From: a virus
Direction: 5' to 3' (one strand)
Length of the DNA stretch: 63,946 nt
IMG/VR virus record: IMGVR_UViG_3300036851_000534
Location: 1-63,946 of that record
In this document: piece by piece, positions 2,863 through 60,344 of the stretch
Layout of the letters: the number at the start of each line of letters is the position of its first letter
How positions within the stretch are numbered: position 1 is the first letter of the stretch
Program-made: the position numbers and the translations under genes
The notes under the pieces: generated by a model
Seen by the model: only the letters and a program-made list of their open reading frames with translations
Told to the model about the DNA's origin: nothing
Databases searched by the model: none

Positions 2863-3230
2863 CAACTCAGCCTTTCTTCAGCCTCTCCCGGGAGTTCCGG
2901 CTCCCATGCCTCCAGTGCGCCGTCCCAGCAGTCGCAAGGCTCCAGGATGGGGAGGCCGTCGTCGTAGTTCCAGCCACACAGGACGCAGGGGCCGTCGCCG
3001 TCTTCGGGAGTGAGACCGGCACAGCCGCAGCGAGGGCAGCGTCCCGTGAGCGTGCAGTCGCAGGGATAGGCGCGCGGCGGCTCTTCCCAACCCCCACTCG
3101 TGCCCGTCTGGCCCCAGCCGTCGCAGCGGGGGCAGTAGTGCGGCCACCGGAGGAGCCAGACGGTGTATTCGACGTATCGATGCCCGAAGGAATCCAGGCA
3201 GGCTTTGGTATGCAAGTTAGGAACGCTCAC
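2862..3230 (-). CDS. Protein with multiple zinc ribbons
   Basis: 122 residues if started at GTG 3230, which overlaps the upstream stop as GTGA. It contains CPRC, CDC, CPRCGC, CVLC and CDC in about 80 residues, so two or more zinc ribbons of rubredoxin or DnaJ-like type are likely. The acidic C-terminus is unlike its basic neighbours. Such proteins may bind nucleic acid or host RNA polymerase, but no specific role can be read here. Confidence 0.65.
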   Translation of the reverse strand: MSVPNLHTKACLDSFGHRYVEYTVWLLRWPHYCPRCDGWGQTGTSGGWEEPPRAYPCDCTLTGRCPRCGCAGLTPEDGDGPCVLCGWNYDDGLPILEPCDCWDGALEAWEPELPGEAEERLS

Positions 3231-3487
3231 AGTAGCCCTTTCTGGACCAGGTGAAGAGCCAAGGCAATGGCGTGCTTGCACTTTCGGTTCGTTCCGGCAC
3301 AGCGGTAAACGTGATCGGGGCAGGAGCAGCCCTGCCCACTGACCTCATAGCGACCGCCGCTCGCTGTCTCCACGCGCCAGCCGGCCGCTGTCTTCGTCCA
3401 CTGCATCGCCTCGCCTTCCGCGAGCGCCCGGGAGACCCGGGCCTCACGGGCGCGCCGGAGCGTCTCTTCGGGGGTGGGTGGGGTCAT
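3227..3487 (-). CDS. SWIM zinc-finger protein
   Basis: 86 residues from ATG 3487 (CGGGAG upstream). Residues 45-75 read CSCPDHVYRCAGTNRKCKH, a CxC-x(n)-CxH arrangement typical of SWIM domains. A second phage gene, 31512-31826, has a recognisably related segment (CSCAEWHQHCQGTDRRCCH), so the two may be paralogues split between early and late regions. SWIM domains bind nucleic acid or protein partners; no catalytic domain is attached. Confidence 0.75.
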   Translation of the reverse strand: MTPPTPEETLRRAREARVSRALAEGEAMQWTKTAAGWRVETASGGRYEVSGQGCSCPDHVYRCAGTNRKCKHAIALALHLVQKGLL

Positions 3488-3488
3488 G

Positions 3489-3740
3489 TCAGTCTCCCGA
3501 TTCTGTCGTAGCAACCGGCGTTCGCAGTGGCCGCAGAGGGTCAATCTGGCGCCGGGCGATGTTGACCACATATTCAAGCGCTTTCAGTTCGTCTTCTGTC
3601 CGTTGGTCGAGCCGCAACGCCTCATGGCACCACTTAATCTCGGCTCGGCGGCCGGGTTGTTCGTGCTTCCAATCCTCGAATGCTTTCTCAGTGTAGTACA
3701 GAGCGTCTTGCTTGCTTCGCCGAGCGCCATAACGTCTCAT
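3489..3740 (-). CDS. Hypothetical small basic protein
   Basis: 83 residues from ATG 3740 behind GAGGAGAG. Mostly helical and charged (KAFEDWKHEQPGRRAEIKW). Its stop lies inside the ribosome site of the next gene. No domain recognised. Confidence 0.65.
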   Translation of the reverse strand: MRRYGARRSKQDALYYTEKAFEDWKHEQPGRRAEIKWCHEALRLDQRTEDELKALEYVVNIARRQIDPLRPLRTPVATTESGD

Positions 3741-3803
3741 CGTCTTCTCTCCTCGCGTCTTCGTTGGGGAAGGAGCGGGCAGGCTCCTCCCGGAAGTGAT
3801 AGG

Positions 3804-4013
3804 TTAGACGAAGATGCCTCGGGCGGTGCTGGAGGCTATCCAGCGATCAAGCGCCTCGTCAGCAGCGCGTTCGTCCGCGGCCATGGCGGCGCGCTGCGCC
3901 TCGGGTGTAAGAGCATTCCAGTAGGCCATGAAGGTCGCCTCCAACTCATCGAGTGTAGCCCGGGGCTCGCTCCCTCCCTCGTCTTCAAAAGGATCGTTCC
4001 AGGTTGTTGCCAT
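3804..4013 (-). CDS. Hypothetical small acidic helical protein
   Basis: 69 residues from ATG 4013 with GGAGAGGGAG just upstream. Acidic and helix-rich. It is the first gene of the leftward early operon after the promoter at 4062-4091, so it is probably among the first proteins made. Function unknown. Confidence 0.7.
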   Translation of the reverse strand: MATTWNDPFEDEGGSEPRATLDELEATFMAYWNALTPEAQRAAMAADERAADEALDRWIASSTARGIFV

Positions 4014-4061
4014 CTCCCTCTCCTTATTCCCTCGTCGTCCGGCCGTGTGTCTGTCTCCTAT

Positions 4062-4091
4062 ATATTACCATATATAAGAATAGAACGGCAA
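4062..4091 (-). promoter_or_regulatory. Leftward early promoter, TTGCCG-N18-TAATAT
   Basis: TTGCCG (4091-4086, minus strand), 18 bases, TAATAT (4067-4062). The -10 region sits inside an inverted repeat TATATA-N6-TATATA. It heads the early operon that reads towards position 1. Confidence 0.7.
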
Positions 4092-4388
4092 CATTTTCCG
4101 GGTAAATCTTGGATAATATTTCGAGCAGCAGCAGCAGAAGGCCGGTGAGTATCGAGACCCCTCCCGGGAGGAGCGGGAGGCGGGTAGGACACGCGGCCAG
4201 CGAAAGCCGCCGCGCCGGGTAGACGCACTGGGGCGAAGAGGTTCCAGGCGGGGTGATGGTCGGGACGGGGGAGCCTACCGAGGCGCTGCGGATGGGACAG
4301 TCGGCGCTGCCGTTGGGAGTGTGATCCACACAACCTCCGATAATGGTTACTATGTCAGCCTGTGCTTGTCCACCGGTGTCCTCATCTG
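4092..4388. other. Intergenic divergence region
   Basis: About 300 bases between the leftward and rightward promoters. It is moderately AT-rich near 4092-4125 and GC-rich after that. No credible gene is seen. It is a reasonable place for operator sites. Confidence 0.5.
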
Positions 4389-4417
4389 TTGACCCTCCCG
4401 GGATCTCCCGCTATACT
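4389..4417 (+). promoter_or_regulatory. Rightward promoter, TTGACC-N17-TATACT
   Basis: TTGACC (4389-4394), 17-base spacer, TATACT (4412-4417): a near-consensus housekeeping-sigma promoter pointing into the late region. A second TATACT lies at 4601-4606, twelve bases before ATG 4619, with only a weak -35 (TGGGCA). Confidence 0.7.
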
Positions 4418-4494
4418 GACCGCAACGGCGCGAGGTGCCGGGCTGGGTTACTTCGCTTCAAATGAAACGCCCGCCCAACCTTCCCTCGCTCCTT

Positions 4495-4575
4495 GCAGTC
4501 CGTGGCGGCGCCCGGCGTTTCACGCGGTTGCACTGGTCGCGCCGGGCGTGGCAGGTTCGACTCCTGCCGGCTGCA
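4495..4575 (+). other. tRNA-like element (T arm and acceptor-like pairing)
   Basis: GCAGG-TTCGACT-CCTGC (4551-4567) is a perfect T arm with the conserved loop. The seven bases after it (CGGCTGC) pair with GCAGTCC at 4495-4501, with one G-U pair and one mismatch. The middle 49 bases do not form normal D and anticodon arms; instead CGCCCGGCG and CGCCGGGCG make a 9-bp stem. There is no encoded CCA. It could be a decayed tRNA, a tRNA mimic or a chance resemblance. Confidence 0.3.
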
Positions 4576-4618
4576 CTGGGCAATGGTCGCCTGCCTGTGC
4601 TATACTCGTCCTAATGTG

Positions 4619-5104
4619 ATGCGCTTTGTCGCCGACCAAGCTCCACCGCATTGGCGCGGGTCCGAATGGCTGGCGGCAGTATGCGAGGGGGCGGGACTGA
4701 CGCTCGAGCAGGCAGAGGCAGCCCATCTCGTCGTGGCGGGCTGTCCCTGGGCCCGGCTGGCCGGCGCGCTCTCCCAGGTCATGGGAGAGCGGATGGGCGC
4801 CCGGCGCGCCCGGCGGAGAGCCTGGCAGGCTGGTGTGGAACTCCGCCGCTATCGGGCGGATCTGCATGCAGAGCACTGGGCCGAGGCTCGGGATCTGCTC
4901 TCCTGCCTGCGGAATACGACGCCCTGTCGCCCCCCCTTGCAGGTCTACGCAGAGAAATGGGGCGTGATCGACCGCGATGCCGTCCGCTTCCGGAGCCGCC
5001 TCGACGGTGAGCATCCGGAGGACCTGGCCCGGCATCCCCTGCGCTTCCTGCGGGACCTCGGCCGTCTGCGCAAGCGCCTTGCCGAACGCGCCTCCGGCGA
5101 GTAG
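4619..5104 (+). CDS. Hypothetical protein at head of the rightward region
   Basis: 161 residues from ATG 4619. The upstream open frame runs through the tRNA-like element and is not credible coding. GTG at 4616 is an alternative start. The protein is Arg-rich and helical, with an SQVMGERMGARRARRRAW stretch that suggests nucleic-acid binding. No family recognised. The -10 box TATACT lies 12 bases before the ATG and no ribosome site is visible, so a very short leader is likely. A terminator follows at 5230. Confidence 0.6.
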   Translation: MRFVADQAPPHWRGSEWLAAVCEGAGLTLEQAEAAHLVVAGCPWARLAGALSQVMGERMGARRARRRAWQAGVELRRYRADLHAEHWAEARDLLSCLRNTTPCRPPLQVYAEKWGVIDRDAVRFRSRLDGEHPEDLARHPLRFLRDLGRLRKRLAERASGE

Positions 5105-19662: not shown

Positions 19663-19920
19663 GTGGCACTGCTGGATAGCGCGGCGCGGGCGGATGCCAC
19701 GCGAAAGTTCGTGGAGGCATTCTTCGTGGGACTCGCGCGGGTCGCGGATTTGGATAGTGACGAGGTGCGGACCCTGGTGAACGATCTGGATGCGTGGCTT
19801 GACGCGAACCAGACGGCGGCGAACAATGCGATTACGACAAGTGTGCGGAACAAGGCCAGCACCACCACGAAGTTCGCGGCGCTGGCTTACGTCGCCCTTA
19901 AAAGAGGGAACGTCATTTAG
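19663..19920 (+). CDS. Small helical protein with replaced 3' end
   Basis: 85 residues from GTG 19663, helical (VEAFFVGLARVADLDSDEV). The last residues are ALKRGNVI and its stop overlaps the convergent HNH gene by eight bases. A second copy of this ending, ALKRGGVI plus stop, lies on the far side of the HNH gene at 20580-20606. The present ending uses AT-richer codons (CTT AAA AGA) than the displaced one (CTC AAG CGC), so it probably came with the endonuclease. Confidence 0.65.
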   Translation: MALLDSAARADATRKFVEAFFVGLARVADLDSDEVRTLVNDLDAWLDANQTAANNAITTSVRNKASTTTKFAALAYVALKRGNVI

Positions 19921-20560
19921 CGACAGGGGTGCTGAACGCCTTGTCGATTGACCACCCGGCTTTGAGGCGATGCGCCAGGGTTCGTCGGTCGATGCCGAGG
20001 AGTTTCCCCCAGTCATTGAGGAGACGAGTTTCCCCGCGCCATTCAAGCGGGCGACTGCTGCGGCGATTCTCATTCTGTTCAATCCGGGATGCCCAGCGGC
20101 AGTTTCCCGGTTCATAGTTGCCGTTGTTGTCGATGCGCTCGATCGTATAATCTGGCCCCGGTTTCTTGCCCACGTCAGCAAGAAATGCCGAGAAGTCCAT
20201 CCAGCGTTCGCAGATCGTAATGCCGCGTCCGCCATAGTCGGCATAGCGAGGGTGAGCCGGGTTTAGGCACCGGCGCTTCATGTGCTGCCAGGAGTTGTAT
20301 TCAGGCGTTGGCTTTTGCCTCCGGGTGTTCCCGTGGGAGGTGAACTGCGCGCGGCATCGTTGCACAGAGAGTTCGCGGTTGAGACATCCGCAGGAGCGTG
20401 ATGCTCCACCCCGGAGGATATCGCCGCGAACGACCACGGTGCCGCCGCAATCGCAGTGGCAAAGCCAGAAGCCGCCTCTGCCACGAACTACGTGGGAGAG
20501 AGACATGACGGTGAGGCGCCCGAAACAGAGGCCAGACATGTTGATGATGGGTCTGCTCAT
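19913..20560 (-). CDS. HNH homing endonuclease inserted at a gene end
   Basis: 215 residues, opposite in direction to its surroundings. The N-terminal part has CHCDCGG and CGCLNR, probably zinc-bound. The HNH core is at about residues 90-165: SWQHMKRRCLNP, YGGRGITICERW, IERIDNNGNYEPGNCRW. A C-terminal HTH follows (WGKLLGIDRRTLAHRLKAGW). A TATAAT box lies about five bases before the ATG, so it has its own promoter and almost no leader. Related proteins are at 41035 and 56110. Its last codons overlap the new 3' end of the invaded gene. Confidence 0.9.
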   Translation of the reverse strand: MSRPIINMSGLCFGRLTVMSLSHVVRGRGGFWLCHCDCGGTVVVRGDILRGGASRSCGCLNRELSVQRCRAQFTSHGNTRRQKPTPEYNSWQHMKRRCLNPAHPRYADYGGRGITICERWMDFSAFLADVGKKPGPDYTIERIDNNGNYEPGNCRWASRIEQNENRRSSRPLEWRGETRLLNDWGKLLGIDRRTLAHRLKAGWSIDKAFSTPVAK

Positions 20561-31511: not shown

Positions 31512-31826
31512 ATGGAAAGAGTTCCGCACGTCCCCACCGTTCTCCTCCCCGTGGAGCACCCGCGCCCCGAGCCATCCGCCTACCACTGGCAGCCCTGGCA
31601 CGAAGACCGCTGGCTCTGCGAGACCCAATCCGGCTCCCTGTACATCGTCGGCGCCGATGGCTGCTCCTGCGCGGAATGGCACCAGCACTGCCAGGGAACC
31701 GACCGCCGCTGCTGTCATCAGAGCGCCCTGGGGTACAGCCTCATCAGCCAAGGCTCGGCGCTGACCCTGCTCGGCCTGGAGTTGCTCGAAGAAGAGCCGG
31801 CGACGGGAGGGCATCATGGATGCTGA
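31512..31826 (+). CDS. SWIM-like zinc-finger protein
   Basis: 104 residues. CSCAEWHQHCQGTDRRCCH (around residues 51-70) parallels the early SWIM protein at 3227-3487. Trp- and His-rich N-terminus. The last residues overlap the start of the GIY-YIG fusion by eleven bases. Probably binds nucleic acid. Confidence 0.65.
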   Translation: MERVPHVPTVLLPVEHPRPEPSAYHWQPWHEDRWLCETQSGSLYIVGADGCSCAEWHQHCQGTDRRCCHQSALGYSLISQGSALTLLGLELLEEEPATGGHHGC

Positions 31827-32985
31827 GGCCCGCTTCGCCCGCCGCGGCTCCCTGACCCATCTTGGGTCGTTGAAGCACCTCCGTCCTCGGCAAACGTGGC
31901 AGGCGCCGCCCTTTGACATGCGCCCCGCCTGGGATACCTTCGAGGCGGAGACCCGCGAGGCGCTGAAGCAGCATGAGGCCGAAGAGTCGGACGCCCCGCC
32001 CCCCTCGGGGGGCGGGGCCGATCGGCTGCCCGATCCACAATCCGGATTCATCTTCATCTACGCGCTCACGCATCCAGAGACCAATGCAGTCAGCTATATC
32101 GGACGCACAAATCAGCCACACGTCCGATGGCGAAGGCATTGTCGCACGGAGGACCGAGGCCGGGCATTAGGCCGCTGGATTATCGCTCTGCGGGATCAGA
32201 ACCAGAAACCACAGATGCGGGTTTTGGAGATGGTTCCGGAGAGCGAATGGCAAGAGGCGGAACGGCGGTGGGTTGCTCACTATCGCTCGCAAGACGCACC
32301 CTTGATGAATGGCACGGATGGCGGGAACGGGAGTAGACACGGACTTCAGTTCTCGCCGACGCACTGCAAGCGGATTAGCGAGGGACGCAGGGGCATAGCG
32401 TACACGCCACAGGCCCTAGAAAATCTGCGCCAAGCCGCCAAGGAACGAGCGCAGCGTTACCGGGCCAGCGGACAGAAGCGCACCATGTCCGCCGAACAGC
32501 GCGCCGAACTCAGCGAGCGCACGAAACGGCAAATGTTAGCCGCCTATCCCTTGACAATAGCCGGGGTGACAAAGACGCGGGCGCAATGGGCGAGGGAGAA
32601 TGGCATCCAGCCAGCGACGATAAAATCGCGTTTGGAGCGTGGGTGGGATCCCGTCGCAGCAGTCACGACCCCCGCTCGCATCGGCTGCCCTCTCGGCCGT
32701 CCTGTGAGTGCAGAAACTCGGGCCAAAATCGGGCAGTCCAACCGGGGCAAAAAGCATGCCAAGGGCTGGAACCACTCCGAGGAGGCGCGAGAAAAGATGC
32801 GCGCTCGATCACTCGCACATTCTGGTCGGCTCTGGGAAGGTTTTCAACGCCCGGACGGATCGCCCATCGAAGCATTCCCGAACTTGCATGCCTTCTGTGC
32901 TGAACATGGACTTCTGGTTTCATCCATGCATGCCGTCTATCATGGTCGCTGCCGCCAGCATCGCGGCTGGACCTGCCGCCGCTAG
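31816..32985 (+). CDS. GIY-YIG endonuclease fused to a phage gene's N-terminus
   Basis: 389 residues. The first 75 residues (helical, EALKQHEAEESDAPPPSGGG) look like the start of an ordinary phage gene. At residue 76 a GIY-YIG domain begins: FIFIYALTHPE and VSYIGRT, VRWRRH, and EAERRWVAHYRS with the catalytic Glu. HTH/NUMOD-like modules follow (RAQWARENGIQPATIKSRLERGW and FPNLHAFCAEHGL). It appears that the endonuclease gene inserted into or replaced the 3' part of the original gene, creating a fusion. Confidence 0.85.
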   Translation: MDAEARFARRGSLTHLGSLKHLRPRQTWQAPPFDMRPAWDTFEAETREALKQHEAEESDAPPPSGGGADRLPDPQSGFIFIYALTHPETNAVSYIGRTNQPHVRWRRHCRTEDRGRALGRWIIALRDQNQKPQMRVLEMVPESEWQEAERRWVAHYRSQDAPLMNGTDGGNGSRHGLQFSPTHCKRISEGRRGIAYTPQALENLRQAAKERAQRYRASGQKRTMSAEQRAELSERTKRQMLAAYPLTIAGVTKTRAQWARENGIQPATIKSRLERGWDPVAAVTTPARIGCPLGRPVSAETRAKIGQSNRGKKHAKGWNHSEEAREKMRARSLAHSGRLWEGFQRPDGSPIEAFPNLHAFCAEHGLLVSSMHAVYHGRCRQHRGWTCRR

Positions 32986-41034: not shown

Positions 41035-41787
41035 TCACTCATCCTGGGGATTTGTAAGGATTCGCTCAACAGGCCAGCCTCGATCCAGGCGGCGCCCGAG
41101 CGTTCGGTGATTGCATCCGAGCCGCTTTGCCCATTGTGTGAGAGAGAGGGTTTCTCCCTGATAGACTATCAAGCGCGGCTTCCTTTCGGGGCGAGGAGGT
41201 TCCGTCAGGGCTTTTTCGATCGGCCACCCCTGTGCCAGACGGTAACGGAGAGTTGTCGGATCGAGATTGAAACGAGCGGCCCAATCTTCCCGGGTTAGCC
41301 GTTCTCCTTGATACTCAATAAAACGGTTCGTTCTTTTGTTCCGTTGCTGCTCTGCCGTTGTCGCCCAGCGAACGTTGCCAGGTTCGTAGTGGCCGTCATT
41401 GTCGATCCGCTCCAGGGAGTGATTCGCGCCGGGGCGCCAGCCCATATCTTCGATAAACGCCGCAAAGTCGTGCCAGCGTTCGCAAACCCGGATCCCTCGT
41501 CCCCCGTAGAGCGGCCAGACCTTCAGATTGGGATTTCGACAGCGCGCGAGCATCGACTGCCAGACCTTGTATTCCGGTGTCTGCCAGCCGCCATGTTTGG
41601 CGAGTCTTTTCCCCATGCACGCGCGGCAACTGGAAGTTTTCCCGGTGCGAAGATTGAGGGCATAAATGGGTTTTTCGACCCCACAGGCACAGCGACAAAG
41701 GACGTGACGCCGCGCTTCATATCGGGGCAACTCTGCCAGGACGGTCCATTGTCCGTACGTCTTTCCGATCATCGGTATCTTTTCCAT
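41035..41787 (-). CDS. HNH homing endonuclease with duplicated C-terminal HTH
   Basis: 250 residues. N-terminal CRCACGV and CRACMG (zinc). HNH core at residues 75-150: VWQSMLARCRNPN, LYGGRGIRVCERW, LERIDNDGHYEPGNVRW. Two C-terminal HTH units (LTREDWAARFNLDPTTLRYRL and LSLTQWAKRLGCNHRTLGRRL) indicate a duplicated DNA-binding module. A TACAAT box lies about eight bases before the ATG. Unlike the other two HNH genes, no displaced gene end is visible beside it. Confidence 0.9.
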   Translation of the reverse strand: MEKIPMIGKTYGQWTVLAELPRYEARRHVLCRCACGVEKPIYALNLRTGKTSSCRACMGKRLAKHGGWQTPEYKVWQSMLARCRNPNLKVWPLYGGRGIRVCERWHDFAAFIEDMGWRPGANHSLERIDNDGHYEPGNVRWATTAEQQRNKRTNRFIEYQGERLTREDWAARFNLDPTTLRYRLAQGWPIEKALTEPPRPERKPRLIVYQGETLSLTQWAKRLGCNHRTLGRRLDRGWPVERILTNPQDE

Positions 41788-55628: not shown

Positions 55629-56162
55629 ATGCCACGCTTGATACCGGTGGACTGGACCCCCGAGTGTCGTATGTCGCGTCTGGTAATCCACTGGACGGCC
55701 GGAGCCGGGGCTCCTTCGGCAGAGGACCTCGAGAGTTACCATATTCTCATCGATCGGGTGGGCCTCCCCCATCGCGGCGACCACAGCATCCGCGACAACC
55801 TCAACACCATTGACGACGACTACGCCGCCCACACGCGCGCCCTGAATACCGGCAGCATTGGCCTGGCGCTTTGCGGAATGGCCGGCGCAAACCGGGCGCC
55901 GTTTGCTCCCGGGAGGTTCCCGCTGACCCGCCCGCAGTGGAATAACGCGCTCTTGGCCGCGGCGGATCTCTGCGAGCGGTATGGGATCGCGCCGGAGCGG
56001 AACACGCTCCTGATGCATTGCGAGGTGCCGCAGGCGCTTGGGGTGGCGCAGCGGGGAAAGTGGGACGTAACCGTTCGTACGTGGGCTGGGCCGCCGGAGT
56101 ATGCCTCGCTCACTCCAGGGGAAGAGTTAAGGGTTCGGGTGAAGAAACTTCTGGAGGGGTAG
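55629..56162 (+). CDS. N-acetylmuramoyl-L-alanine amidase (endolysin)
   Basis: 177 residues. RLVIHWTAGAGAP near residue 18 and LLMHCEVPQALG near 127 provide zinc ligands of Amidase_2/PGRP-type enzymes. GSIGLALCGMAGA near 77 is the usual central strand. It would cleave the peptide-glycan amide bond at lysis. The last 37 residues have a displaced, frameshifted copy at 56828-56939, and the present end overlaps the HNH gene by 53 bases. Confidence 0.88.
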   Translation: MPRLIPVDWTPECRMSRLVIHWTAGAGAPSAEDLESYHILIDRVGLPHRGDHSIRDNLNTIDDDYAAHTRALNTGSIGLALCGMAGANRAPFAPGRFPLTRPQWNNALLAAADLCERYGIAPERNTLLMHCEVPQALGVAQRGKWDVTVRTWAGPPEYASLTPGEELRVRVKKLLEG

Positions 56163-56811
56163 TCTTTTGCGGACGACTACGAATGGGGGCTGTGAGGGCT
56201 TTCTCGATATCCCAACCGGCCTTTAGCCGGCCGTGAAGTCGCTCCGGTTCGAGTCCGAGTTCGTGTGCCCATTGGGAGACGGTCTGCCGCCGGCCGTCCC
56301 ACTCGATCCAGACGTTTCGGCGCGTGTTGTTGGTGTTCTCGCGTTGAGTGGTCCATCGGCAGTTACCGGGGGCGTAGGGGCCGGCGCTGTCGATCCGATC
56401 CAGTACGGCCTTCGGGAAGGGTTTGGGTCCCATGGCGCGCAGGAAGTTGGCGAAGTCATGCCACTCTTCGGCTACGGTGATCCCTTGGCCGCCGTAGAAG
56501 CGATAGCGATCATGGTTTGGATTGTAGCAACGGCGCATCATACGCGCCCACGTCTGGTACTCTACGCTGGGGGTATGCTGGCGAGTGTGGCCGTGGGTAA
56601 CGCTTCTCTCACAGCCGCAACTCTTGCTTTCTCCCTTGAGGAGGGAGAAGAGGAAGACTGCATGCTCCGTTCCGCAGGAGCAGCGACAAGGGATGAACCA
56701 GTGAAGCCGCTTTCCGCGCAACTCTCGAAAGGGCGTGCCGATGATTTCCCAAAGTCCGACGTGCGCCCCGATCTCGGGGGCTTTCTCATGCATTCGCAGG
56801 CGTCTTCCCAT
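56110..56811 (-). CDS. HNH homing endonuclease inserted at the amidase gene end
   Basis: 233 residues from ATG 56811 behind GGAGG; longer frames exist but have no ribosome site. CRCSCGT and CGCERS near residues 40-60, HNH core at 75-150 (YQTWARMMRRCYNPNHDRY, FYGGQGITVAEEW, LDRIDSAGPYAPGNCRW), then an HTH (VSQWAHELGLEPERLHGRL). It converges on the amidase gene and its last 17 codons are antisense to the amidase's last codons, so the endonuclease gene carries the amidase's replacement end. Confidence 0.9.
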   Translation of the reverse strand: MGRRLRMHEKAPEIGAHVGLWEIIGTPFRELRGKRLHWFIPCRCSCGTEHAVFLFSLLKGESKSCGCERSVTHGHTRQHTPSVEYQTWARMMRRCYNPNHDRYRFYGGQGITVAEEWHDFANFLRAMGPKPFPKAVLDRIDSAGPYAPGNCRWTTQRENTNNTRRNVWIEWDGRRQTVSQWAHELGLEPERLHGRLKAGWDIEKALTAPIRSRPQKTTPPEVSSPEPLTLPLE

Positions 56812-56827
56812 CGCACTATCCTCCAAT

Positions 56828-56939
56828 GGTAAGTTCGACGTATCCCCCAAGACTTCCTGTGTTTTACCGAGGAAAGTACAACGCCGGGACTCCCGGCGAG
56901 GATCTGCGCCAGCGGGTAGAGTTGTTGCTGGAGGGGTGA
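56828..56939 (+). pseudogene. Displaced, frameshifted 3' end of the amidase gene
   Basis: It begins GKFDVSPKTS (compare GKWDVTVRTW in the amidase). After a frame change it continues AGTPGEDLRQRVELLLEG and stop (compare SLTPGEELRVRVKKLLEG). It lies directly behind the HNH start codon and eleven bases before the next gene's ATG. The shift shows that this copy no longer encodes protein in one piece. Confidence 0.8.
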
Positions 56940-56950
56940 GGAGTAGATAC

Positions 56951-57184
56951 ATGCCGAAGATCACGAAAGCCAACGCCTTATGGCATGCGGAGCGCGTCGA
57001 GGTGGCGATTGACGGTCCCGGCCCCGGTGGCATCTCGGTGACGCTCGCGCGGCCCGGGGATTGGTGCGCCTATCTGGAGACGAGTGACGGTGAACTGGTC
57101 TTCAAGGCGTTTCTGACGGACCAGGAGTATCGGGAAAAGTTTGTGCGTGTCGCGGGCGGTAGCCTGGCGGCGGAGCGTCGTTAG
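56951..57184 (+). CDS. Hypothetical small protein after the amidase locus
   Basis: 77 residues from ATG 56951 behind GAGGAG. Strand-rich (RVEVAIDGPGPGGISVTLAR). It overlaps the convergent membrane protein gene by four bases. It may have followed the amidase gene directly before the HNH insertion. Confidence 0.65.
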   Translation: MPKITKANALWHAERVEVAIDGPGPGGISVTLARPGDWCAYLETSDGELVFKAFLTDQEYREKFVRVAGGSLAAERR

Positions 57185-57690: not shown

Positions 57691-58389
57691 TTACAAGCGC
57701 AAGACGGTCATGAGCTTGAAACCGCGGTTCCCGACCCGACGAATGCCGACCCGCAGCATGGAGGAGCTGGTGCCCGCCGTCAGCCCGCCACCGACATAGA
57801 TTTCCTGGTGGCCGAGCCGGTTGCCGCGCTTGTGAAAAAACAAAAAATCCCCGGGTTTATACCACTGGTAGTAAGGCGCATAGCGCGTCGAGACGCGAGA
57901 GGCGACGATTTTTCCGCCCCGCCGGCGGAGCTGTGGATAGGCGACGTTGACCGCATAGGAGTGGCGTTTGCCGCCCGATTTCACCAGGATGTAGGAGGTG
58001 AAGGCGGCGCAGGCGACCCGGGGCGCGGACGGCAGAAACCGGGAGTTTCGCGGCATGGACGACGCCACGCGGCGGGCGGTCAAGCCGACGCGCGTGCCGA
58101 GCCGGGAATGCCTTGCCCGGGGATTGACCAGGCGCAGCGCTTCCACGGGCGCGAAGATGTCCGGCCGGCCCGGGACGAGCGACTTCAGCCGCATGGTTGT
58201 CTTGCCCTGCCAGGTGCGGAGGATCTGCTGTGGCGGCTCGAAAAACTCCCCGACCGGATAGCCCGGCACGGTCATGACCGGCTCTTTGGGTCGGGGAGCG
58301 GCTGCCGCCCCGATGGCCCGCAGCCCGTTCCCGCGCCCGCCGCACAGGAGTAGGAGGCCAACGAGACAGAGCCGGGGACAGTTGTTCAT
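57691..58389 (-). CDS. Secreted NlpC/P60-like peptidase or amidase
   Basis: 232 residues from ATG 58389. An N-terminal signal, perhaps lipoprotein-like (LCLVGLLLLCGG). VACAAFTSYILVKSGGKRHS provides the candidate Cys near residue 132, and YKPGDFLFFHKRGNRLGHQE the downstream His. NlpC/P60-like enzymes cut cell-wall peptides. Its stop and start overlap neighbours within the lysis operon. Confidence 0.65.
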   Translation of the reverse strand: MNNCPRLCLVGLLLLCGGRGNGLRAIGAAAAPRPKEPVMTVPGYPVGEFFEPPQQILRTWQGKTTMRLKSLVPGRPDIFAPVEALRLVNPRARHSRLGTRVGLTARRVASSMPRNSRFLPSAPRVACAAFTSYILVKSGGKRHSYAVNVAYPQLRRRGGKIVASRVSTRYAPYYQWYKPGDFLFFHKRGNRLGHQEIYVGGGLTAGTSSSMLRVGIRRVGNRGFKLMTVLRL

Positions 58390-60200
58390 CGTGCGGCCCA
58401 TACGGCGCACCAATAGGCGCCGTCCTGCGCGATTCCGACCTCCCGGTACTGGCTCCCCAGGATGATTGCCTTGTGGCCGGGGGAGTTCATCCACGCTTGC
58501 GTCACGGCGGCGGGCGTCGGATACCCCATCGCGACGATCTCTCCGTAGGTGCGCCAGGGATAGCCGGCGCGGGTGAGTCGCGCGCCGGGGTTGCTGCCGT
58601 CCCCTCCCGTGTGGCTCATCATCTGGCGCTTTCGCATGTCAGCAGCGTGGGCGATGGCCGCCGCCGTGAGCTGCGGATGGATCACTACCGCCGTGAGGCC
58701 CGCCTGCACCCGCGCGGCGTTGAAGAGGGAGAGCACCTCGGCTGCGATCGTCTCCGTTCCCGGATCGATCACCGGCGGCGTTACCGGCGGCGGAACCGGG
58801 GTGGGGAGCGGGCCGGGGGCGGGCGGCGTAGGCGGCGTCGGCAGGCCCGGCGGCGCGCCTTGCTTTGCCTGCTGGCAGGCGCCGGCCGCGTTTAGGAGCC
58901 CGGCGCCAAAACTCTCATCCCAGCCGGGCGCCCCCAGGTCGCGCGCCGTGCTCGTCAGGAGTGCCCGCACCTGCTCCATCGAGAGGTTCGGGTTGATCGA
59001 GAGGATGGCCGTCGCGGCCCCGCTTACGTGCGGCGTTGCCATGCTCGTGCCGGAGAAGTAAAAATAGCCGCTCTGCTGGTTGCTCTGGCCGAACGTCTGC
59101 TGGAGGATCTGGCTCCCGGGAGCCGTCAGCGTCAGCCCTGGCCCATACTGCGAGAACGACGCCCGCGCCCCGCGCGCCGTCGTGGCGCCCACGGAGATGG
59201 TCTGCGGATAGGCGGCCGGATAGGTGATCCCCCGCTTGCCGGAGTTGCCGGCGGCGGCGCAGATGACCGCGCCCTTCTGCCGGGCATACTCGATGGCATC
59301 CTTGAGGGTCTGGCTCCCGACCCCACCAATCGAGAGGTTCAGGACCCGGGCGCCCTTATCCACCGCGTACCGGATCCCCACGCCAATGGAGTAGTTGCTG
59401 CCCCGGCCCGCCTTGTCCAGCACCTTGACCGGCAGGATGGTGCTTCCCGGGGCGAGGCCGGCGCAGCCCCGGAGGTTGTTGGTGGTCTGGGCGATGGTGC
59501 CGCAAACATGGGTCCCGTGGCCGTTGTCGTCATTCGTGTTCGTGTTGTTGGCGATGACGTTCAGGCCCGACATGAACTTCGTCCCGGTCAGGTCCGTGCT
59601 CGTCTGCCGCACGCCCGTATCCAGAATCGCACAAATGATGCCGGTCCCCTGCGTCAGCGCCCGCACGGTGGGCAGACCGACGCCATAGAGCCCATCGGCA
59701 AAGCCCCACTGAAACCGCAGATAGGGGTCGTTCGGCGTCTCCCGGGCGTCCAGGGCTTTGGAGAGCGGCAGCGGCAGTTTCTCGGGCAGGCGGTATCGCT
59801 GCACGATCGGGAGCAGCGCCATCCGCACTTCCGGCTCGATATATTCAATCGGCAGGTTGACCTCGGCGAGGGCGACGAATCCCTTCCGGGCGATCGGTTT
59901 CACCAGCAAGTACGGCCCCGGCTTGAGCTTGCCGACGACGGTGACGCCGAGTACCCGGCTCACCTGCTGGATGAGGGCGGCGGTGCTGTTCTGGTTGAGC
60001 TTGACAATCATCCGGCCGGTGACGAGCGGGGTCTCGACCATGATCTTAGTCGGGGCCACCGGCATGCCCATGCGGATCATCGGCAAGGTCACCGGTGCCG
60101 GCCGTCGGCCGATGTAGGGCGGGACGAGCTGCTGGGCAGACGCCAGGCGAAAGAAGCCGGACGCCAGGAGCAGGGCGAGAATGGTCCCCCTAACGAGCAT
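58386..60200 (-). CDS. Secreted subtilisin (S8) fused to a CAP/SCP domain
   Basis: 604 residues from ATG 60200, with a signal peptide (TILALLLASGFFRLASAQ). Residues 70-150 resemble an inhibitor-like prodomain. The S8 triad is visible: AILDTGV (Asp, near 203), GHGTHVCGT (His, near 242) and FSGTSMATPHVSGA (Ser, near 405). A Pro-rich linker (about 470-500) leads to a CAP domain at 505-604 (HPQLTAAAIAHAADM, AWMNSPGHKAIILG). Phages rarely encode exported proteases of this size. It may digest host surface protein during release. Confidence 0.88.
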   Translation of the reverse strand: MLVRGTILALLLASGFFRLASAQQLVPPYIGRRPAPVTLPMIRMGMPVAPTKIMVETPLVTGRMIVKLNQNSTAALIQQVSRVLGVTVVGKLKPGPYLLVKPIARKGFVALAEVNLPIEYIEPEVRMALLPIVQRYRLPEKLPLPLSKALDARETPNDPYLRFQWGFADGLYGVGLPTVRALTQGTGIICAILDTGVRQTSTDLTGTKFMSGLNVIANNTNTNDDNGHGTHVCGTIAQTTNNLRGCAGLAPGSTILPVKVLDKAGRGSNYSIGVGIRYAVDKGARVLNLSIGGVGSQTLKDAIEYARQKGAVICAAAGNSGKRGITYPAAYPQTISVGATTARGARASFSQYGPGLTLTAPGSQILQQTFGQSNQQSGYFYFSGTSMATPHVSGAATAILSINPNLSMEQVRALLTSTARDLGAPGWDESFGAGLLNAAGACQQAKQGAPPGLPTPPTPPAPGPLPTPVPPPVTPPVIDPGTETIAAEVLSLFNAARVQAGLTAVVIHPQLTAAAIAHAADMRKRQMMSHTGGDGSNPGARLTRAGYPWRTYGEIVAMGYPTPAAVTQAWMNSPGHKAIILGSQYREVGIAQDGAYWCAVWAAR

Positions 60201-60344
60201 GAAAAACCCTTTGCTGGAGGCGGCGACTGGGAGCAACTGGCGGGGCCAGGGAGCCTCTCCCTCGCACTCACCGCCTCCAGCCGTAAGCATTATCCGTAAC
60301 TAACCCGCTACAGCAAGCCGTCGCCATCTGCCTTCCCGAGCGAT

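Follow-up and report, generated by a model that had tools for sequence, protein, structure and literature searches.

Why should a phage amidase gene have two ends, one closing the gene itself and a second lying beyond an endonuclease gene on the opposite strand, and how could such an arrangement have come about? The locus that raises this question belongs to a single virus record of 63,946 bases, which was analysed over its whole length and is referred to here as the window. A sequence-only reading had noticed that the end of the amidase gene is duplicated around a convergent HNH gene. The point of interest, which that reading had not stated, is HNH-associated replacement of a gene end, recurring at other genes. 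The features of the locus are as follows.

55629..56162, + strand: Amidase_2 endolysin gene, complete, 177 aa (Pfam Amidase_2, E=1.4e-11)
56055..56066, + strand: GKWD codons with the invariant KWD motif (K144-W145-D146 invariant in relatives)
56067..56162, + strand: in-gene amidase end, proposed on the basis of GC3 to have arrived with the HNH gene
56110..56162, - strand: antisense overlap, in which the final 17 codons plus stop of the HNH gene lie opposite the final 17 codons plus stop of the amidase gene
56110..56811, - strand: gene of a 233-aa HNH endonuclease of the homing type, convergent with the amidase gene (PHROG 374, E=1.2e-53, residues 34-210)
56820..56824, - strand: Shine-Dalgarno GGAGG of the HNH gene, read from the sequence, 8 nt upstream of the HNH ATG and with 3 nt between it and the displaced end
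56828..56939, + strand: displaced amidase 3' end (remnant), frame-broken, homologous to the gene end
56951..57184, + strand: 77-aa gene, function not assigned, with a 63% identical homologue in L092

Results

The amidase is predicted to be complete with its in-gene end

The amidase gene terminates in TPGEELRVRVKKLLEG and a stop codon. Every column that is invariant in 15 relatives is present in its product, including H21, H130, K144 and D146, and in a six-sequence alignment the in-gene end lines up with the ends of phage relatives, with G164 and R168 invariant. The AlphaFold2 model (pLDDT 85) folds this end into a C-terminal helix (residues 163-176) at pLDDT 89-95, the KWD loop being less certain (pLDDT 57). 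Foldseek matched the protein to AmpDh2, AmiD and the Ts2631 endolysin, that is, to the AmpD/AmiD family and phage endolysins, at TM-scores of only 0.4-0.55. The Pfam match, the zinc and catalytic residues H21, H130, K144 and D146, and a fold of the AmpD/AmiD family thus all identify an Amidase_2 enzyme. Since the in-gene end aligns with its relatives and is modelled as the C-terminal helix, the amidase is predicted to be complete without the remnant; judged by alignment and model, it is the in-gene end, called new in the sequence-only reading, that completes the enzyme, and the copy beyond the HNH gene that is the displaced one.

Close relatives carry empty sites. In the record IMGVR_UViG_3300037070_007697 (L012/L092), the amidase (65% amino acid identity) is uninterrupted, has a single end reading MTPGAELRIRVGRLLQT and stop, and has no HNH gene beside it. 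The amidase of L093 (55% identical) is likewise uninterrupted, with one end and no adjacent HNH gene. A search of 136 amidase loci found no other convincing second end and no HNH gene adjoining an amidase. The only other HNH match in these loci lies at 2035-2334 of L063, about 0.7 kb upstream of an amidase of the same family.

An antisense overlap confined to the HNH tail

A Pfam search of the HNH protein gave no match, and tblastn found relatives of the gene in 918 phage records. Single-sequence searches of viral contigs with the amidase or the HNH protein returned no matches, alignments being required. The earlier emphasis on one DNA segment that must serve both proteins is not supported: the two genes do share 53 bp (56110-56162), but on the HNH side these encode only the last 17 residues. 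The latter belong to a tail of about 23 residues (past about residue 210) that has no counterpart in 12 aligned HNH homologues and falls outside the PHROG family match at residues 34-210. The overlap is accordingly read as coding on both strands, and its HNH side, as far as the alignments indicate, encodes a non-conserved run-on tail.

The same phage has three further homing-type nucleases, at 41035-41787 (-), 19913-20560 (-) and 31816-32985 (+). Two are HNH proteins, one with its C-terminal module doubled, and one is a GIY-YIG/NUMOD3 protein that matches the same C-terminal module. No convincing duplicated ends were found at the two other HNH genes or at the GIY-YIG gene.

A second amidase end beyond the HNH start

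Past the start of the HNH gene, at 56828-56939 (+), a second amidase end closes in TPGEDLRQRVELLLEG and a stop codon. It consists of GKFDVSPKTS at 56828-56857 and, in another frame, VFYRGKYNAGTPGEDLRQRVELLLEG and stop at 56859-56939. The sequence-only reading had quoted the displaced end as one continuous peptide; both pieces are present, but they lie in different reading frames and lack a start, so that the peptide could not be translated as written. The displaced copy spans 112 nt against 108 nt in the gene, with 62 identical positions and 4 nt of gaps, and the homology of the two ends begins at GKWD/GKFD, i.e. at the invariant KWD codons.

The duplication was assessed by a stop-anchored test, in which the last 16 amidase codons were compared with the 16 codons preceding each stop codon in six frames. 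The segment ending in TPGEDLRQRVELLLEG scores 59, and the next best of the window's 2,469 stop codons scores 14; in a wider set of the window plus HNH loci (69,450 stop codons) the best chance score is 25, which confirms the duplicated end around the convergent HNH gene. When the segment was shuffled 5,000 times as an independent check, the highest score was 43, the observed one being 62. Taken alone, the GKFDVSPKTS half supports the duplication less strongly, ranking 33rd among the 127,828 positions of a profile scan, though it stands at the expected place. A generic six-frame test of the flanks is weak (p=0.0095 for the amidase and 0.17 for the case in L092 described below) and was superseded by the stop-anchored test; the strong statistics depend on anchoring at the true gene end and its stop.

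As the second end has no start codon and is frame-broken, we regard it, from its sequence, as a stranded, dead remnant. The locus therefore has the layout of the Allomyces and Glomus elements discussed below: the end of the host gene is duplicated on both sides of an endonuclease gene, the gene being intact with the proximal end and the distal end being dead. Had the displaced piece been the start of another gene, the sequence-only reading would have failed on its own terms. This is not the case: the remnant stops 11 nt short of the ATG that opens the 77-aa gene, and the L092 homologue of that gene begins at the same Met. In L092 the homologue has the opposite orientation and converges on the amidase with overlapping stop codons, so another rearrangement must have taken place at the window locus. 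A search for other relatives of the 77-aa gene found none. To judge by their sequence, the last codons of the remnant (GGAGGGGTGAGGAG) can serve as a ribosome-binding site of the 77-aa gene, a role that may be why these bases persist. Further along the window, adjoining the lysis genes, is a subtilase (Peptidase_S8, E=1.5e-59) fused to a CAP domain (E=1.2e-15) at 58386-60290 (-); the fusion is conserved in L092.

The same layout at other genes

Stranded gene ends also occur behind HNH genes elsewhere. One case, at a second lysis gene, is in the nearest relative, L092, at 3221-4713 (-), where the last 12 codons of an NlpC/P60-like gene lie stranded behind an HNH gene:

3988-4713, - strand: NlpC/P60-like lysis gene of L092, ending in NRGFARCSVLRL and stop
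3253-3954, - strand: HNH gene of L092, from other PHROG families than the HNH gene of the window and unrelated to it

Directly past this HNH gene, DRGFSRMSVLRL and a stop codon follow in another frame, scoring 44 against 25 for the best chance match (69,877 stops). The NlpC-like orthologue in the window ends in NRGFKLMTVLRL and stop with no HNH gene, and the DNA after the stranded end in L092 matches the stretch after the window's NlpC-like gene. A further case concerns ninB, which in L262 (1828-3251) and L243 (1927-3329) is complete and is followed by an HNH gene and then by about 66 codons of a second, divergent ninB 3' region, the two phages standing for two lineages; L312 is identical to L262 and provides no independent case. 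An N-terminal mirror image is found in L176 (2760-3728) and L182, where a truncated 5' fragment of a small gene is followed by an HNH gene and the complete small gene.

In a survey by a uniform test, a protein end was duplicated across the gene in 4 of 159 HNH loci, compared with 0 of 225 control ORFs, for which we estimate, without formal computation, a Fisher's p of only about 0.03. The survey is supportive, and it is the individual cases that carry weight. One of the four hits, at 2239-3195 in L294, has an HNH gene flanked by two genes whose cysteine-rich ends are alike (RCGECKYW...ADDFCSYG), and another HNH-like ORF comes directly after it; it was not counted as a clear case, each of the repeated ends having its own gene. 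Matches in L208, L153, L246 and L240 and at WIN:19916 were dismissed as Arg-rich and of low complexity.

Origin of the two ends

The ninB cassette allows the parts to be compared between two phages. Between L262 and L243 the HNH gene has the highest DNA identity, at 86.5%, followed by the in-gene 3' end at 84% and the ninB body at 73%; the stranded ends are only 56% identical. Thus for ninB, though not for the amidase, DNA identities demonstrate that the in-gene end and the HNH gene are common to two phages as one block and that the stranded ends are not. The GC3 of the in-gene end (0.45 in L262 and 0.48 in L243) differs from that of the body (0.81 and 0.73; p=3.6e-5 and 0.0056) and of the remnant (0.73 and 0.67; p=0.0014 and 0.034). 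In tblastn comparisons the nearest NinB group is one of Pseudomonas phages for the stranded end and one that includes lambdoid phages for the in-gene end; the two ends therefore come from different lineages, the in-gene end going with the HNH gene. Composition and matches together support a foreign proximal end and a native distal end. Because the body of ninB and its in-gene end have the same best match among phages, the block that moved may include sequence further upstream. A search of annotated phages for the exact DNA of the cassette found none.

At the amidase, the part of the in-gene end that follows GKWD has a GC3 of 0.60, lower than the 0.79 of the body (p=0.034); the remnant has 0.77 and the HNH core 0.69. 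GC3 is not low in the amidase ends of the relatives L092 and L093. These values, which for the in-gene end derive from 30 codons only, are weakly suggestive of a foreign in-gene end and a native remnant. At the protein level, the end of L092 (GKWDVSVRSW) is matched by the in-gene end (GKWDVTVRTW) no less closely than by the remnant. No second phage with the HNH-amidase unit was found, and co-transfer of end and HNH gene has so far been seen for ninB and not for the amidase.

Discussion

At the level of sequence, our data demonstrate that two homologous ends flank the HNH gene, that the amidase gene is intact and the remnant dead, that relatives have empty sites and that the layout recurs at other genes. 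We consider it probable that these features reflect the insertion of an intronless HNH homing-endonuclease gene that swapped the end of the amidase. An HNH gene, accompanied by the 3' end of a related phage's amidase, would have entered the amidase at the invariant KWD codons, and the carried end would have rejoined the reading frame, thereby keeping the amidase intact. The recipient's own 3' end would have been pushed about 0.77 kb downstream, where, having lost its start and gained a frame-breaking indel, it would survive as the remnant just before the 77-aa gene. We propose that the HNH protein cuts the allele that lacks the cassette and that the break is repaired from the donor, one side by way of homology within the amidase body and the other by an irregular join. 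Such break repair would have moved the block, and the in-gene amidase end would be the foreign one. Phage homing genes occur in or near functionally critical genes (PMC2988022), which makes a conserved motif such as KWD an expected target of a homing nuclease. The GKWD codons (56055..56066) are the presumed neighbourhood of insertion and cleavage, and we infer a cleavage site there from the sequence.

Ordinary phage mosaicism would account for the locus differently: illegitimate recombination would have joined a module that carried a truncated amidase end of foreign origin, and perhaps the 77-aa gene as well, to a complete amidase, and the HNH gene would be a bystander. In favour of such an event, phages recombine freely, the 77-aa gene is inverted relative to L092 and the in-gene amidase end is like the L092 end. 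Against it, the two ends become homologous at the invariant KWD codons, no more than 4 nt away from the ribosome-binding site of the HNH gene, duplicated ends recur across HNH genes but in none of 225 control ORFs, and the ninB in-gene end and HNH gene form one shared block. We therefore regard mosaicism as unlikely.

A former tandem duplication of the amidase, in which the HNH gene entered the second copy and a deletion spared only its 3' end, would predict that the remnant is the 3' end of an amidase with fitting orientation and position, as is the case. Yet the two ends are alike in only 62 of 112 nt and the duplication would not be recent, relatives have a single amidase there, and the window yielded nothing of a second copy's 5' part; this history strikes us as highly improbable. 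Group I introns often house HNH genes (PMC2988022), and the intervening segment might accordingly be spliced out, or the two ends might be alternative C-termini of a split amidase gene. The window has no Rfam match at the gathering threshold, no intron family reaches E<=1 in the vicinity of the locus, the in-gene end needs no completion, the remnant is frame-broken and the HNH gene is antisense to the amidase, which leaves splicing or a split gene with hardly any credibility. Group I or II introns, inteins and other structured RNAs were likewise rejected as candidates, there being no relevant Rfam match and the amidase being complete without splicing.

The end-swapping insertion that we favour has a counterpart in mobile endonuclease ORFs of fungal mitochondrial DNA with a C-terminal duplication, found in atp6 of Allomyces and in atp6, atp9, cox2 and nad3 of Glomus sp. 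(PMC3630166). There, too, a free endonuclease ORF sits in a conserved gene, the carried 3' end completes the host gene and the native end is displaced downstream (PMC3630166). The two ends have diverged strongly in DNA in both settings (63.5% in Glomus sp. atp6, PMC3630166; 62 of 112 nt here). The fungal ORFs differ in encoding LAGLIDADG or GIY-YIG enzymes in mitochondria, as opposed to HNH in phage DNA (PMC3630166). In addition, the HNH gene at the amidase is convergent to its host gene and overlaps it, and an N-terminal version occurs in L176/L182. Expression has been tested for the fungal ORFs (PMC3630166).

Among phage elements, the free-standing seg and mob homing endonucleases of T4-like phages are similarly intronless and adjoin or lie inside conserved phage genes, often overlapping their neighbours (PMC2988022). 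They differ in being intergenic insertions or in splitting a gene into two polypeptides, as mobE does in Aeh1 nrdA and mobA in T4 gene 60 (PMC2988022), and we found no duplicated or carried gene ends described in this review of T4 homing (PMC2988022). The HNH endonucleases of lactococcal Skunavirus phages resemble ours in being encoded by HNH genes, which occupy recurrent genomic positions and have marker exclusion activity, although the paper makes no mention of duplication (PMC12724721). The end-carrying mechanism is thus known from fungal mitochondria, and our search of the open-licence literature, subscription papers being outside its scope, found no phage example.

Beyond this locus, we incline slightly towards a broader proposal, in which the HNH genes of phages would constitute a general class of intronless end-swapping cassettes. 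Each would combine an endonuclease with a replacement 3' or 5' end, enter at the codons of a conserved motif and leave a stranded native end as its footprint, spreading chimeric phage proteins and maybe making the new allele resistant to its own nuclease. Bringing along a spare end is a possible answer to how an intronless homing gene can invade a gene that the phage needs. Because the stranded end can be recognised as a footprint, earlier invasions could be counted in any phage collection. Some chimeric phage proteins, such as the endolysin and NinB, may therefore stem from selfish nucleases and not from random mosaic exchange.
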